A DNA stretch of 64,000 bases from Bacteroidota bacterium (lineage in GTDB: Bacteria > Bacteroidota > Bacteroidia > Flavobacteriales > Schleiferiaceae), in contig JANSYJ010000001.1 of the NCBI GenBank assembly GCA_024742495.1, positions 434,001 through 498,000 of the forward strand, in the 5' to 3' direction. The stretch's first letter is position 1. Every line of letters starts with the position of its first letter. The position numbers and the translations under genes are program-made. The notes beneath the pieces were generated by a model. That model was given only the letters and a program-made list of their open reading frames with translations. It ran no database searches and was not told the origin of the DNA. Below are positions 25,672 through 49,671 of the stretch, piece after piece.

Positions 25672-26336
25672 CTACCCTAAAAACAATAAGCATAAAACGG
25701 ACGGCTCGTTACTATTTAAGTGACGAGCCGTCTTCTTTGCATAAAAACCTCTGTTTTGTACTGCATGGTTATGGTCAACTACCTGAGTACTTTATAAAAA
25801 AGTTTGCCGCCTTAAATCGCTCCGATATACTGTTTGTGGCCCCAGAAGGATTACACCGGTTTTACCTAAATGGAAGTAAGGGAAGAGTTGGCGCCAGTTG
25901 GATGACCAAAGAAAACCGCCTCCAAGATATTTCGGATTACAACCAAATGCTGGAACAAATTGCCATGGAAATAGGCAAAGATCGAAGCTTTGAAAAGATC
26001 GCGATTTTCGGATTCTCCCAAGGGGTAGCCACCGCTTGCCGTTGGGCCAACTTTACAGCAGTAAAATTTGAAGCCCTCATCAGCTGGGCAGGAGCTTTTC
26101 CACCAGACCTTAACTTTGAGCAGGCCCTCGATAAGCTGCAGCCAAAAGAGCTTTATATTTTATGTGGAGATGAAGACGAATTTATAAGCGAAGCAGCCCT
26201 CCAAGAGCATCTGGACTTTTTAAATAGCAAAGGCCTATCGCCAAAATTGCATCGCTTTAAAGGCCAGCACGATCTTTATGCAAAACCTCTAGAAACCCTT
26301 TTCGACGAACTGTTTCCTATTCCTCCAGGTCCATAA
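25668..26336 (+). CDS. Alpha/beta hydrolase (phospholipase/carboxylesterase type)
   Basis: A 222-aa serine hydrolase. The oxyanion loop VLHGYGQ, nucleophile elbow GFSQG, an acidic residue in CGDEDEFI and the His in GQHDLY give a full catalytic triad, as in the small carboxylesterase/lysophospholipase family. There is no signal peptide, so it acts in the cytoplasm. TTG at 25668 overlaps the crotonase stop. The 3' end overlaps the convergent S4 protein gene by 20 nt. Confidence 0.85.
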   Translation: MTTLKTISIKRTARYYLSDEPSSLHKNLCFVLHGYGQLPEYFIKKFAALNRSDILFVAPEGLHRFYLNGSKGRVGASWMTKENRLQDISDYNQMLEQIAMEIGKDRSFEKIAIFGFSQGVATACRWANFTAVKFEALISWAGAFPPDLNFEQALDKLQPKELYILCGDEDEFISEAALQEHLDFLNSKGLSPKLHRFKGQHDLYAKPLETLFDELFPIPPGP

Positions 26337-26688
26337 AATCCCCCAGGTCCCTTCTTTCTTTTTTTGTGGGTCTTCCAGTTCCGCGCGGGCGATTAAGCTT
26401 GTGCATTAAATTGATAAACTCTCTTTTCTCCAGTTCCTCGGGCCGAGTTACCTCCTTAATGAGTTCTGGAAGAAGTTTGGCTCCAACTCTCGACTTGGGA
26501 ATACCCAAGACCTCAATTTCAAATTCTATAGTATCCTTTTTAAAAGCGATGCGATCACCAATCTTAATTTCCCTTGAGGCTTTTACTGGCTCATCATTTA
26601 CGCGTACGCGCGATTTTTTTAAAGCATCTGTAGCCTGGCTGCGGGTTTTATACTTTCGAATGCACCACAAGTATTTGTCTACACGCAT
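26317..26688 (-). CDS. RNA-binding S4 domain protein (HslR/Hsp15-like)
   Basis: A 123-aa protein with an N-terminal S4 fold (MRVDKYLWCIRKYKTRSQA, then KKSRVRVNDEPVK) and a basic C-terminus (RPRGTGRPTKKERRDL). In E. coli, Hsp15 rescues stalled 50S subunits carrying nascent chains; the same role here is inferred. The conserved first residues fix ATG at 26688. A perfect -7 element (TACTTTTG, 26693-26700) stops 4 nt before the ATG, so the mRNA may be leaderless. A large hairpin array lies just upstream. Confidence 0.88.
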   Translation of the reverse strand: MRVDKYLWCIRKYKTRSQATDALKKSRVRVNDEPVKASREIKIGDRIAFKKDTIEFEIEVLGIPKSRVGAKLLPELIKEVTRPEELEKREFINLMHKLNRPRGTGRPTKKERRDLGDFMDLEE

Positions 26689-26692
26689 GCCC

Positions 26693-26700
26693 CAAAAGTA
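26693..26700 (-). promoter_or_regulatory. -7 element abutting the S4 gene start codon
   Basis: TACTTTTG on the minus strand matches TAnnTTTG exactly. It touches hairpin B0 of the array on one side and lies 4 nt from the ATG on the other. No -33 TTG is visible at 17-23 nt because that space is occupied by the hairpin. Confidence 0.4.
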
Positions 26701-27285
26701 AAGAATCCCGAACGTTAAGTCCGGGATTCTTAAGATATAGAGGGGGTAATTTTCAGTTTGAAAATTTAGCCCCTTCAGCGCTTAATCTGAAGGGTACTAA
26801 AAGGGGTATAGAGGGATGTTTTAATTTCTTTGGTTAAAGGATCCCCGGAGTGGGTACCGGGGAATCCTTTGGATATAGAAGGGGTGTTTTAAACTTTTTT
26901 GGTTTTTAGCTCCCTCAGCACTTAAGCTGAGGGATACTAAAAGGGTATAGAGGGATATTTTAATTTTTTTGGTTAAAGGATCCCCGGAGTGGGACCGGGG
27001 AATCCTTTGGATATAGAGGGGGTGTTTTAAACTTTTTTGGTTTTTAGCTCCCTCAGCACTTAAGCTGAGGGATACTAAAAGGGTATAGAGGGATATTTTA
27101 ATTTCTTTGGTTAAAGGATCCCCGGAGTGGGGCCGGGGAATCCTTTGGATATAGAGGGGGTGTTTTAAACTTTTTTGGTTTTTAGCTCCCTCAGCATTTA
27201 AGCTGAGGGATACTAAAAGGGTATAGAGGGATATTTTAATTTCTTTGGTTAAAGGATCCCCGGAGTGGGTACCGGGGAATCCTTT
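26700..27285. repeat. Tandem array of nine alternating hairpins, about 138-bp period
   Basis: This noncoding stretch between the beta-helix gene and the S4 gene is an ordered series B0-A0-B1-A1-B2-A2-B3-A3-B4. B hairpins lie at 26700-26731, 26836-26870, 26975-27008, 27113-27146 and 27251-27285; A hairpins at 26771-26794, 26911-26934, 27049-27072 and 27187-27210. The B stem is AAAGGATCCCCGG with CCGGGGAATCCTTT; the A stem is TCCCTCAGC with GCTGAGGGA. Every hairpin is followed on the + strand by a related linker (TATAGAGGG, TTTTAA, TTTTTTGGTT; 40 nt in the unit measured), so the 138-bp unit is itself a diverged dimer of about 69 bp. Stems in the leftmost unit differ by compensatory changes. There is no ORF, and T runs do not directly follow the stems. 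Confidence 0.9.
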
Positions 27286-27308
27286 GGATATAGAGGGGGA
27301 TTTTAAAT

Positions 27309-30300
27309 CTATTTGCGGTACACTACTTTTTGAGTGTAGCTCTTAGTATCAGTGATTACCTTCATTAGATAGATTCCGTCAAGAAGGTCAGTTCCTGGCT
27401 GGTAAACCATAGTGTTAGTTCCGCGGAACTGATGTCCCATAGACTGAAGATCTACCATTTTACCGCTCAAGTCATATAACTCTACGCGAACGTCGCTTCC
27501 TTTATCAAGGTTTAGATCGATATGAGCTGCACCACTGAAAGGGTTAGGGTAAACATTGATACCAGTTTCTTCTTCAACTTTCAATTCACTAGTTCCAATG
27601 GTGTTCCCGTTGGTGTTAAACTCTAGGTTGCTTACGTCGAAGGTTACAGGAACATAAGTGTTGTAGTCTCCCACGATTGAGAAGGTTACATTAAGAACTT
27701 TGCTTAAATCTAGTGGCGTGTTTCCAGCAGACTGAAGATCGGCTAAGTTCACAGTGTAAGTTCCCATTGCCGCGTTGTTTACAGGAACTGTAACACGGTA
27801 CTGCTCGCTCCAGTTAGTAATGTCTGCTGTTACAACAGTTACAATCATTTCGCTCATTCCGCTTAAGCTCGCTTCGAAGCTCAGTTGGTTGAAGGCGCTC
27901 ATGTCTACCGCTTTGTGACCTGGGCGTAGCATGCGATAGATGCTTACATAGTTCTTTAAGTTACCGGCGAATTGTACATCGCGCTCTAAGTGCTTTTTGT
28001 TGCTATCGAAAACATAACCGCTTTCTGTAAGAGTAGTAAAGCTGGTATTAGTAGCTCCAACAACTTGCTCGTAGTCAACACCCCAAGCACCGTCTGCTAG
28101 GTAAAGTACGTCGCGTCCACCACCGATGTCATTTAAGATTTCAAAACCTGCATCAAAGATGTAACCGGTGTTCCAAACTACTGTCTCTTCCGTTTTTGCT
28201 GGATCTAAGGTGATTAATTCACCAAACTGAGTACGAGTAGCTTTTTCGTTGATAGTACGGTTAGCCATGATGTTGATTTCAGTAGCTCCAACAGTGTTCA
28301 CCATGGTTAAGTGAATCTTACCGTCTTCATAACGACCAGTTTTCACATAAGTAGTAGGAATCGCTACATGGCTGCTTGTTAAGCTTGATACTGCTCCATC
28401 CATTTCCATAAGGTCAAGGATATCTTCAACTAAAGCACGAGTTAAGCTTTCAGAAACTGTCCATACTTGGAAGTTATACACCTTATCAGAAGGCTGCATG
28501 TTATACTCTTGTTGATTCCAACGAGCATCAATTTCAAAAGAACCGTCTGCTTTCTTGTAAGCCACAAAGGTTACAGCAATATCAACTAAGCCGTTTCCTT
28601 GATCAAGGTGAGACATGATGAAGTTATGTCCTTTGATGTTAACCACTTTGATGTTCTCTAGAGAAGCACCGTTTAAGCGATCACAAATTACTTTGGTATG
28701 ATTGTAAACTTCATTTTGAGTTTCAATAGCAAGGATGCTTCCTAAGCGGTTGTTCGCATTGTTTAGGTAATCAACCGAAAACACATTTAAGGCATTGGTA
28801 ATTCCTACTAAGTCTGTTGGACTAGCAACTACTGCTGCTGCATTGTGAGGACCTACAGGAGGAAGGTAGTCACTAAGAGCATTAGTCTTAGCTACATTGT
28901 TTAACTGATAATCGCTTAAAGTAGGTTGAGCATCGATGCGATCGTAGAAAGTATGCTTTCCGCTGATGATACGCTCGTAGTTACGGGCAGCAATTAAACG
29001 TGCCATAGAACCTTCACTTTCAATTCCACCGTTATTAGAACCTGATGAACCAGTAGCACAGTTTTCAGTAGCACTGTTATTATTCACATTAGGATCTGGC
29101 TGATTTTGACTGTTTACAGAAGCAGTGTTACTTCCATTACCGTTCACGGTTACAGTAACTTCTAAAGTTTGTACGTTTCCACAAGTTACTTCTGGGATAG
29201 TCCACTCACCATTGGCAGCATTGTAAGTTCCGCTGCTAGGAGTGTTGTGGCTTACATAAGTAAAGTTGGCATCAATTAGGTAATCAATGATAACCGCAGT
29301 TGCAGGAACTCCACAAGTAAGGTTATCTACATAAATGGTGAAGGTTACTTGATCACCAGTGTTAGGCGTATTGTTAGTTACAGTTTGAGTAACCTCTAAG
29401 TCAGCAGGACAACGAGTGCTGTTAATGTCGGCAGTAATAGTTGTTCCTTGTAAGTACCAGCTTAAAGAGCTAACAGAAGGGAAAGTCACATCAAATACAT
29501 CACAGTGTGTTCCTGCTAGGAAAGCGCTAGTCTGACCGCGGTCTTGAGCACCTGGGCTGAAGAAGTTATTTCCGCCTACAGGAACATTTACGGTTGATCC
29601 GTTCTGATTGCTGTATCCAAATCGAGCAACAACATTACCGTTTACATCTATATATACACAATTCAACTCTGGGCTAACACTTACTAAACCGGTAGATCCA
29701 GTAGCAGTAAAGGCAGCACAAAATTCAGAAGTACCATTGGTGCTTAAGTAAGCAGTAGCAGTAAGTTTCTCACCAGCTACAAATCCAGCTGGAGCAGCAA
29801 CAGTAAACTCGAAACGGTTAGCGTTGGTTTCAGAACCTTGGGCTACACCATTTACTAAACCAGGACCATAAGAACCGGTTGTAGCATCCATATCATCTGC
29901 GCTACCTTCTACTTTAGAGAAAAGGAACTCACGACCTTGAGCCATAAAAGCACCAGCATATTCATCCGCTAAGAAGAACTCTACTAAAGCACCTGCCGGA
30001 GCAAAACCTTTAACTGTAAGGTTGGCGCCATTTAGGATAACCGCGTCAATTACCGGGAAATTTTGAGCTTTGTTTCCGCCAGCATCAATATCATTATTAT
30101 CGTTTAAAGTAACATAAGTACTAGTACCCATTCTGTGGTTATCGGTAGAGCGTAATACGTCAATCCCGATTTGCTTAGAAGTAGTTAAAGGTGCAGCAGT
30201 TGGAAGTACGTTACCATTGTTATAAATGCAGTTCTCAGTAATCCAGTGCTTTTCAGCTGCACTTGTTACAAGGATACCCGCACCCACATTATCATAAATT

Positions 30301-31271
30301 TTATTCTTGCGAATGGTATCTCCGTAAGTTCCGTAGATGCGCATTCCAGAAGTTTCATTGTTTAAGATTCCGTTACCGAAAGAAGTGTTGTTTTCGATAA
30401 GGTGGCTGCCAAAAGAGTTATAAGAATCAAAACCATTAGCTCCATTATCGCGGAACATGTTTTCACGAATAGTACAGTTTTCTGTGTGGTCTGCAACGTC
30501 TAAACCATCAGTAATGAAATCTACCAAACCGTTGTGGGCAAAATCGTTTTGGTAAATATCCCAACCGGTGCTTCCTGTGCGTAAAAAGCCTCCCATTGTT
30601 CTGCTATAAGCCACATAGTTGTTGTGAAACTTACCGTTATCAACCTGTAGAGCTTGGAAGTTAGGAGCACCATTAAAGTCGCTTCCCGCTGGAGCCATAT
30701 CCGCGTGAGCCTCAGAACCAAGAACCATATTAAAGGCTTCGAAGTCATTGGCGCTTGCACGCACTAAAAGGTTAGCTTGGTTATAGATGAACCAACCGTT
30801 ACCGAAACTGTGGATAGTAATATCGTTTACAACTTGATCGCGCTCACAAAAGTGTAATCCCCATTTAAGTGTTCCGTGTCCGTCCACTAATTCAATTTCA
30901 GGACCGTCCACTTGCGCTAAGGCTACATCATCACAACCTACAGTACCACCGATACCAAAAGTAGTGGTGTTAGTATTTCCCGTAAAGGCTGTTTGTGTGC
31001 TACCATCAATAGTTAAAACCCGGTTTCCAATTCCTGGAAGCTCGGTAGAAGTAATAGTAATGGTAAAAACCCCGGTAGTAGAATTGTAGCCTGGGTCGGT
31101 AGTAGGAATGTTGAATTCGATGCGATCAATACTCCAATTGGCATTGGCATCGGTAATAGCCTGACGTAAAGACCCCGCTCCGGAATCATTGGTGTTTGTC
31201 ACCGTTAGTGTCTGACCAAAAGCACCTATTGAAAGTGCCATTAAAATTGTTAAAATACCCCACGTTTTCAT
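27309..31271 (-). CDS. Right-handed beta-helix surface protein with T9SS sorting domain
   Basis: A 1320-aa exported protein. The signal peptide (MKTWGILTILMALSIGAFGQ) fixes ATG at 31271; a start further upstream at 31298 would lie inside the probable -7 element. The N-terminal third has parallel beta-helix repeats (phrases such as NCTIRENMFRDNGANGFDSYN and GILNNETSGMRIYG). A DUF11-like Ig domain follows (DLEVTQTVTNNTPNTGDQVT), then a long region of unknown fold, and a C-terminal type A sorting domain (GINVYPNPFSGAAHIDL to KVVYRK). It should be secreted by T9SS and anchored to the surface. Ligand or substrate is unknown. It is divergent from a LytTR regulator, and its 3' side runs into the hairpin array. 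Confidence 0.88.
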   Translation of the reverse strand: MKTWGILTILMALSIGAFGQTLTVTNTNDSGAGSLRQAITDANANWSIDRIEFNIPTTDPGYNSTTGVFTITITSTELPGIGNRVLTIDGSTQTAFTGNTNTTTFGIGGTVGCDDVALAQVDGPEIELVDGHGTLKWGLHFCERDQVVNDITIHSFGNGWFIYNQANLLVRASANDFEAFNMVLGSEAHADMAPAGSDFNGAPNFQALQVDNGKFHNNYVAYSRTMGGFLRTGSTGWDIYQNDFAHNGLVDFITDGLDVADHTENCTIRENMFRDNGANGFDSYNSFGSHLIENNTSFGNGILNNETSGMRIYGTYGDTIRKNKIYDNVGAGILVTSAAEKHWITENCIYNNGNVLPTAAPLTTSKQIGIDVLRSTDNHRMGTSTYVTLNDNNDIDAGGNKAQNFPVIDAVILNGANLTVKGFAPAGALVEFFLADEYAGAFMAQGREFLFSKVEGSADDMDATTGSYGPGLVNGVAQGSETNANRFEFTVAAPAGFVAGEKLTATAYLSTNGTSEFCAAFTATGSTGLVSVSPELNCVYIDVNGNVVARFGYSNQNGSTVNVPVGGNNFFSPGAQDRGQTSAFLAGTHCDVFDVTFPSVSSLSWYLQGTTITADINSTRCPADLEVTQTVTNNTPNTGDQVTFTIYVDNLTCGVPATAVIIDYLIDANFTYVSHNTPSSGTYNAANGEWTIPEVTCGNVQTLEVTVTVNGNGSNTASVNSQNQPDPNVNNNSATENCATGSSGSNNGGIESEGSMARLIAARNYERIISGKHTFYDRIDAQPTLSDYQLNNVAKTNALSDYLPPVGPHNAAAVVASPTDLVGITNALNVFSVDYLNNANNRLGSILAIETQNEVYNHTKVICDRLNGASLENIKVVNIKGHNFIMSHLDQGNGLVDIAVTFVAYKKADGSFEIDARWNQQEYNMQPSDKVYNFQVWTVSESLTRALVEDILDLMEMDGAVSSLTSSHVAIPTTYVKTGRYEDGKIHLTMVNTVGATEINIMANRTINEKATRTQFGELITLDPAKTEETVVWNTGYIFDAGFEILNDIGGGRDVLYLADGAWGVDYEQVVGATNTSFTTLTESGYVFDSNKKHLERDVQFAGNLKNYVSIYRMLRPGHKAVDMSAFNQLSFEASLSGMSEMIVTVVTADITNWSEQYRVTVPVNNAAMGTYTVNLADLQSAGNTPLDLSKVLNVTFSIVGDYNTYVPVTFDVSNLEFNTNGNTIGTSELKVEEETGINVYPNPFSGAAHIDLNLDKGSDVRVELYDLSGKMVDLQSMGHQFRGTNTMVYQPGTDLLDGIYLMKVITDTKSYTQKVVYRK

Positions 31272-31295
31272 AACTGTAAATGTTCGATTACACAG

Positions 31296-31303
31296 CAAAC
31301 GTA
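31296..31303 (-). promoter_or_regulatory. -7 element of the beta-helix gene
   Basis: TACGTTTG on the minus strand fits TAnnTTTG exactly, 24 nt before ATG 31271. A matching -33 TTG is lacking, which would fit a promoter that needs an activator such as the adjacent LytTR regulator. Confidence 0.45.
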
Positions 31304-49227: not shown

Positions 49228-49671
49228 ATGAAAGAGCAGGACCTAAAAAAACTATTTGATCAAAAGCTGGGAGCGGCGGACTTTGAGTTCAACCCTTCCA
49301 ATTGGGATGCATTTGAGCAAATGGCGGATCCTCAAGAAGCCATGTCCGAGCAAGAGTATAAAAAGCTCTTTAAGGATAAAATGGCCCAAAGTTCTTTTGC
49401 CTTTAACCCTGGAAATTGGGAGGCCTTTGAGCAAATGACCAATCCTCAAGAGCCGCTTTCTGAACAAGCCTATAAAAAACTATTTAGAGATAAACTGGCG
49501 CAATTGAACTTTCCCTTTAATCCCGCTAACTGGGATGCGATGGAAGATGAGTTAGGGCCCGAGAATGGAATGACGGGAGCAGAAATGCAAACCTTATTTC
49601 AAAAGAAAGCCAGCCAATCAAGTTTCGCTTTTAACCCGGAGAATTGGTCGCGAATGGAGGCCATTCTAGAC
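49228..49671 (+). repeat. Four 114-bp coding repeats (38 residues each)
   Basis: Residues 1-148 are four in-register copies of a pattern LF-x-x-K-x(4)-F-x-FNP-x-NW-x-x-(F/M)E. The period is exactly 38 residues in all three intervals. Confidence 0.85.

Follow-up and report, generated by a model that had tools for sequence, protein, structure and literature searches.

REP and BIME elements are tandem intergenic palindromes that follow genes and are dispersed in many copies. Sponge RNAs of the CsrB/RsmZ type likewise consist of tandem hairpins; they repeat a short motif, GGA in the loops, and titrate an RNA-binding protein. Hairpin clusters have been described as intrinsic termination units with hairpins less than 15 bases apart, and the number of clusters falls exponentially with the number of hairpins per cluster (PMC8355165). 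For Bacteroides thetaiotaomicron, FopS, 14 paralogous sRNAs bound by the RRM protein RbpB, have been described as RNAs with a single-stranded seed region followed by a terminator, and RbpB is said to prefer AU-rich sequences (PMC11697453).

The window analysed here is a 64,000-nucleotide stretch of a Bacteroidota genome of the family Schleiferiaceae (GCA_024742495.1, contig JANSYJ010000001.1, positions 434,001 to 498,000). It contains a 620-bp intergenic gap (26689-27308, minus strand) between the gene for a T9SS-secreted surface protein and the gene for an S4-domain RNA-binding protein. Folding of this gap yields nine main hairpins in the order B A B A B A B A B (26701-27285). They are visible, mostly as separate structures, in the minimum-energy fold of the minus strand, which is the coding strand of both flanking genes and folds at -210 kcal/mol compared with a shuffle mean of -127 (z -15.7, 20 shuffles); the plus strand is less distinctly folded (z -7.0, 20 shuffles). 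Tandem Repeats Finder reports a single array at the locus (26765-27307, period 138, 95% matches, score 972). Folding and repeat finding together bear out the nine hairpins, strict B/A alternation and 138-bp period described in the initial annotation, with the difference that the repeats start at the T9SS stop codon (27308), not at 27285. In line with the array being noncoding, as had been proposed, none of the listed open reading frames of at least 60 amino acids lies inside it, and one plus-strand frame (26366-26701) just touches its edge. The features, in the direction of the two genes, are as follows.

27309-31298, minus strand: gene for the T9SS-secreted surface protein, upstream of the array, with DUF11, beta-helix and Por_Secre_tail sorting domain (ORF, Pfam)
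26689-27308, minus strand: whole gap, nine box-hairpin units in tandem (138-bp dimer) (repeat finder, fold)
27287-27299, minus strand: box CCCCCTCTATATC before B4 (sequence; mean unpaired probability 0.58, predicted ensemble)
27251-27285, minus strand: hairpin B4, the first past the T9SS stop (fold)
27220-27230, minus strand: box CCCTCTATACC before A4 (sequence)
27180-27218, minus strand: hairpin A4 (fold)
27148-27160, minus strand: box before B3 (sequence)
27113-27146, minus strand: hairpin B3 (fold)
27082-27092, minus strand: box before A3 (sequence)
27042-27080, minus strand: hairpin A3 (fold)
27010-27022, minus strand: box before B2 (sequence)
26975-27008, minus strand: hairpin B2 (fold)
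26944-26954, minus strand: box before A2 (sequence)
26904-26942, minus strand: hairpin A2 (fold)
26872-26884, minus strand: box before B1, CCCCTTCTATATC, the sole inexact box (sequence)
26836-26870, minus strand: hairpin B1 (fold)
26805-26815, minus strand: box before A1 (sequence)
26767-26799, minus strand: hairpin A1 (fold)
26748-26766, minus strand: small extra (tenth) hairpin, AT-rich, in the last linker, nearest the S4 gene (fold)
26734-26746, minus strand: box before B0 (sequence)
26701-26731, minus strand: hairpin B0, S4-proximal and terminator-like, followed by TACTTTTG (fold, terminator scan)
26693-26700, minus strand: TACTTTTG, part of the T-rich tail of B0 and candidate sigma-A -7 element of a putatively leaderless S4 mRNA, at -12 to -5 of the ATG (from sequence)
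26317-26688, minus strand: gene for the S4-domain RNA-binding protein, downstream of the array (ORF, Pfam S4 E 2.8e-10)

Each main hairpin has a short box on its 5' side, one to five bases away. The nine boxes follow the pattern CCC(C)TCTATA, and eight contain CCCTCTATA exactly; those of the B hairpins, except B1, read CCCCCTCTATATC and those of the A hairpins CCCTCTATACC. The A and B units have similar linkers and boxes, and their stems are unrelated in sequence. Thus, the earlier description of each unit as a diverged dimer of about 69 bp holds for linker and box and fails for the stem. The spacers between hairpins are about 30 nt long. On the minus strand the 282 nt of linker comprise 114 A, 87 C, 71 T and 10 G, that is, 31% C and 3.5% G, compared with 21% G in the window background. 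In the predicted ensemble the boxes have mean unpaired probabilities of 0.58-0.99, compared with 0.50 for the whole gap; the B4 box is half paired, and the B1 and B3 boxes are partly paired. The box also pairs with the GGGG that precedes the S4 start when the window is folded at minimum energy; this pairing was dropped because GGGG is not kept in the sister sequences.

The four dimer copies have diverged to different degrees. Three differ from one another at 2-5 of 140 aligned positions (96-99% alike) and are therefore recent; the fourth, nearest the S4 gene, differs from the others at 22-23 of 140. Because the copies can be told apart, a simple assembly duplication is argued against. From these differences, we suggest that the recent event was amplification of the 138-bp unit, on top of an older duplication that gave rise to A and B. 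Repeats of another kind occur elsewhere in the window, where 114-bp in-frame repeats (49291-49535) encode 38-aa units of FNPxNWxAFEQM-like pattern; they lie in the N-terminal part of a 564-aa ORF, and the adjoining ORF appears sigma-factor-like by eye.

We compared the gap across the genus, one genome per species. The T9SS gene lies directly upstream of the S4 gene in all seven genomes, those of the window species and six sisters, and the number of gap hairpins varies: nine in the window species, three in G019, two in G014, G015 and G017, and one in G016 and G018. For G014 and G015 the count of two rests on sequence and local folds, as folding of the entire gap at minimum energy merges the two hairpins into one long-range structure. 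Genomes of three other genera (G001, G002 and G022) have the same T9SS/S4 neighbours and one gap hairpin, without the box. The S4 gene has a match in 75 genomes of the family, and we read its neighbourhood in 30 of them. Judged by eye from the folds, 10 of these 30 loci have a strong hairpin immediately upstream of the S4 ATG, and they are exactly the loci at which the T9SS gene precedes the S4 gene. All 17 T9SS matches were also read, to at most about 1.5 kb downstream; in the seven of these T9SS relatives whose fetched sequence shows no S4 match, a different terminator-like hairpin lies downstream, as judged by eye. Within a further set of 80 S4 loci, 27 were read upstream of the gene, together with L019, which is the G019 locus; these were kept out of the counts. 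The gap hairpin goes with the T9SS gene and its copy number varies; therefore, the array most likely grew from the T9SS terminator, by tandem amplification of a terminator-type box-hairpin module belonging to that gene.

The terminator character of the hairpins differs along the array. B0 is listed by a terminator scan (26731-26701, minus strand, 13 pairs, tail TACTTTTGGG) and has the form of an intrinsic terminator, a GC-rich stem directly followed by a U-rich tract; the same scan lists 4 sites overall, compared with 2.0 expected by shuffling. The inner hairpins have no U-tract after the stem, the linkers there being A-rich, and A1 is the only one of them listed. The earlier rejection of a terminator series thus holds only in part, since B0 is terminator-like. 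In all seven genus genomes the S4-proximal hairpin carries a T-rich tail and ends a few bases short of the S4 start codon. This tail is TACTTTTG or TATTTTTG except in G016, where it is TATTTTCG; it stops four bases from the ATG except in G018, where the distance is six bases. We read this hairpin as a probable, conserved intrinsic terminator of the T9SS gene.

The reading that we favour, and consider somewhat more probable than its rivals taken together, places the array in the T9SS mRNA as its 3' untranslated region, where it would serve as an amplified termination and protection module with a box recognised by a factor acting in trans. A long structured 3' UTR was one of the options offered in the initial annotation, and the comparison among species lends it support. 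The T9SS transcript would run through the array and end after B0. The array would have arisen by tandem duplication of an ancestral module made up of a stable hairpin and, in front of it, a C-rich box (CCCCCUCUAUAUCC). The copy nearest the S4 gene would have kept its U-rich tail and would act as an intrinsic terminator; the upstream copies would have lost this tail or never had it. The inner hairpins are most likely roadblocks that would shield the 3' end of the mRNA from exonucleases and back up termination, although they may have no role in termination, as their U-tracts are absent. The G-poor linkers would keep most boxes single-stranded. We infer that the box is most likely read in trans, by an RNA-binding protein or a complementary small RNA. 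The putative factor would also act on the box before the terminators of other genes of the genus, and nine boxes in one mRNA would make this transcript a main sink for it.

Alternatively, the array may be the result of neutral expansion, in which a single terminator is useful and the extra, harmless copies arose by replication slippage between hairpins. We regard this as possible, with about half the weight of the favoured reading. Arguing for it, copy number is 1, 2, 3 or 9 among related species, the nine-fold state is found in one species of seven, and the close likeness of three dimers marks them as recent. Counter to this, the older stems (A1 compared with A2-A4, and B0 with B1-B4) stay paired through paired changes; A1 is the most diverged A copy, and two of its stem pairs are changed on both sides relative to A2-A4. 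Furthermore, eight of the nine boxes are exact although the A and B stems are now unrelated.

Comparison with the sister species adds to the case for selection. The C-terminal T9SS codons and the S4 codons encode proteins of 65-88% amino-acid identity, and their fourfold-degenerate sites are 36-51% identical. The aligned box is almost letter-perfect in six of the seven genomes; the exception is G016, which has a weak box (CCCCCCCCTTTATTATC) and a locus that scores 20.6 bits with the covariance model. Retention of the box while fourfold sites diverged is best explained by selection on the box itself. For the stems, MAFFT on all 16 B-type units misplaced the arms of the 4-C stems, and the tool-based count was made on 11 units, an alignment in which the window stems are still shifted. 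In these 11 units 89.8% of cells are paired (as high in 7 of 500 shuffles), and the paired cells fall to at most 61.6% when the partners are slid by 1-3 columns. The covariation score of 0.160 exceeds the shuffle mean (0.113), and 12 of 500 shuffles are as high. Three pairs have two-sided changes (matched by 33 of 500); the number of cells changed on both sides is matched by 50 of 500 shuffles and the number of pair types by 141 of 500. We consider this tool-based covariation evidence supportive, not overwhelming. In a hand alignment of 15 of the 16 units, made with the structure in mind and with no control, 192 of 193 cells are paired and 7 of 14 pairs have a two-sided change; the unit G019_h2 was excluded, its stem not aligning.

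A second alternative is a platform for Rho-dependent termination, in which the linkers, poor in G and containing C, would together make up a composite rut site and the hairpins would bring them close to one another. Linkers with 31% C and 3.5% G would suit such a site. We nonetheless judge it unlikely: sister species have only one to three units, and what is conserved is a precise box and not a composition. Rho sites are not known to contain a fixed sequence of this kind.

The initial annotation also raised the possibility of a binding platform for the adjacent S4 protein, which would make the array an autoregulatory leader. The last hairpin does abut the S4 start codon in all seven genus genomes. 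However, by eye, 20 of the 30 family S4 loci lack such a hairpin before the gene, the ten that have it all lie behind a T9SS gene, and a terminator-like hairpin also follows the T9SS relatives for which no S4 match was seen. In addition, the S4 mRNA may begin at its ATG, as a TAnnTTTG element at -12 to -5 suggests, and in that case the array would not be part of it. Taken together, these points make the S4 platform very improbable.

The element just cited coincides with the tail of B0. In Flavobacterium psychrophilum the sigma-A -7 box TAnnTTTG is located at -12 to -5, and only 5.5% of mRNAs were found to be leaderless (PMC9723704). The tail occupies this same position relative to the S4 ATG; therefore, the predicted transcription start of the S4 gene is the A of its ATG. 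A leaderless S4 mRNA would be unusual given the low proportion of such mRNAs in that species. Two genomes of genus g4 lack a hairpin at the S4 gene but have kept TACCTTTG, which lies four or five bases from the ATG, and a TTG is present 21 bases upstream (by eye). No TTG was seen at that distance in the window's genus, and for this reason we offer the promoter as a suggestion only: the S4 mRNA may be leaderless and start at the end of its neighbour's terminator, with tail and promoter overlapping.

Searches for further copies point to a single locus. The 139-nt unit has four strong matches in its whole own genome, all inside the array. A covariance model of 11 B-type units, R1, which leaves the A hairpins outside its reach, scores at least 35 bits only at the T9SS/S4 locus, with 15 hits in six of the seven genus genomes; its best score elsewhere is 27 bits. 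The array has no Rfam match at E 1 and no phage match. As for a known family, which the initial annotation had named as grounds for giving up its claim, Rfam thus gave none at that threshold, and none of the open-licence titles listed concerns such a box element or such a hairpin array. The array is also distinct from a CRISPR, as had been stated, in that hairpins and linkers both repeat and identical repeats with unique spacers are absent. The suggestion of an unnamed REP-like or other mobile repeat, to which the short palindromes of an intergenic array lend some appearance, has next to no credibility and was rejected on the grounds of one locus in the genome, an orthologous position in seven species and no phage or Rfam match.

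The weaker R1 matches led us to other terminators with the same box. The 10-mer CCCCTCTATA has 44 sites in the seven genus genomes, 13 at the T9SS/S4 locus and 31 elsewhere, compared with 28 for its reversed control; therefore, the signal of the box lies in its position more than in its number. A strict script finds a terminator-like hairpin with a T-rich tail right behind 10 of these 31 sites and behind none of 96 control sites, which are occurrences of 60 permuted 10-mers in 800 kb taken from two of the genomes, intergenic and genic alike. By eye, 14 of the 31 precede a terminator, the script's ten plus L232, L239, L245 and L252. In 13 genomes of 12 other genera the 10-mer shows no excess, with 37 sites compared with 69 for the reversed control. 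We also inspected 60 terminators located by script in 800 kb of G000 and G014, where the box is absent from the 12 top upstream 5-, 6- and 7-mers of each genome. The best C-rich k-mers there are TCCCT (4 compared with 1.2 expected) and ACCCC (3 compared with 0.65), and a C-rich stretch occurs in 1 of 25 of the upstream sequences inspected. As ordinary terminators do not show it among these top-ranked k-mers, the box does not seem to be a general feature of termination.

The ten positive sites belong to lipoprotein (seven), peptidase (two) and LytTR (one) genes and are largely orthologues, which leaves about three independent gene families with the box besides the T9SS gene. Two tandem DUF4842/DUF4114 lipoprotein paralogues carry it (domains from Pfam, lipoprotein by eye from the protein start). 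At the lipoprotein loci of six genomes the stop codon is followed by CCCTATCTATACCCCTCTATAC or a close variant and then by a hairpin, and the stems differ; in G016 the sequence immediately behind the matched gene lacks the box and forms a different hairpin. One stretch, L256:5607-9941, contains the tandem paralogues, each with a box and a terminator-like hairpin after it. Downstream of an M1 peptidase gene (Pfam), CCTTCCCCCTCTATA precedes a terminator-like hairpin in G000, G014, G017 and G019, with one letter different in G000 and G017. These M1 modules were seen in L300, L303, L305 and L307 at position about 1500, with an extra 5' hairpin in two of the four by minimum-energy fold. G000 also has a LytTR/TPR gene with a box and a terminator-like hairpin downstream. 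The M1 and LytTR modules lie roughly 65-110 nt from the stop codon, a further hairpin stands just 5' of the box in three of the five (L192/L304, L305 and L307; minimum-energy fold), and TAYTTTG occurs upstream of the M1 modules in all four genomes. These modules could be small RNA genes. Searched against Rfam, nine box-terminator loci gave only a tRNA at E 0.5.

Possible antisense targets of the box were looked for among 20 of the 31 other sites. Fifteen lie in long open frames, and four of these are antisense to the frame; the distance of the four to the first visible start codon is 461-482 nt, and the frames remain open upstream. Among these 20 no antisense box target lies near a start codon. 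Two intergenic CCCCTCTATA sites, L251 (516, minus) and L255 (502, minus), have no clear terminator hairpin, and the L255 site falls shortly before a possible start codon.

The array occurs at one locus, the orthologous gaps hold fewer hairpins, the box is conserved and it recurs at other terminator-like hairpins. We consider the box to be the more interesting discovery than the array itself. Candidates for its reader are a complementary RNA and an RNA-binding protein with an RRM domain, for which one gene was found in the genome (G000:C30:540994-541200). More tentatively, and with well under the weight that we give to the favoured reading, CCCCUCUAUA may be the recognition site of a previously undescribed post-transcriptional regulon of the genus. 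Single boxes ahead of terminators would mark the mRNAs of envelope proteins, the DUF4842 lipoproteins, the series hairpin, CCUUCCCCCUCUAUA and terminator would be a stand-alone small RNA behind the M1 peptidase, and the nine-box T9SS 3' UTR would be a sponge that titrates the factor. If true, a T9SS surface protein, lipoproteins and a candidate small RNA would belong to a single regulon, in bacteria whose RNA-based control is little known. The recurring box provides a short, testable sequence for finding its putative reader. In addition, a terminator-like module present at 1, 2, 3 and 9 copies in one orthologous place constitutes a natural experiment on extra 3'-UTR hairpins.

Returning to the described systems, the array, confined to one locus, differs from REP and BIME elements with their many scattered copies. 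Like CsrB/RsmZ RNAs, it is a series of tandem hairpins that repeats one short motif; unlike them, it carries the motif in its linkers, and its reader protein is only putative. With the hairpin clusters it shares several hairpins in a row past a stop codon, explained for the clusters as joint termination, and it departs from them in its spacers of about 30 nt, its alternating sequence repeats and its conserved box in each unit (PMC8355165). The anatomy of its unit resembles that of FopS: the predicted structure has a conserved single-stranded stretch followed by a terminator-type hairpin. The box is C-rich and present in nine copies in one gap, and the array matches no Rfam family, which sets it apart from FopS (PMC11697453). 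The array is an ordinary part, a terminator-type hairpin, in the unusual state of nine ordered copies, combined with a genus-specific box.
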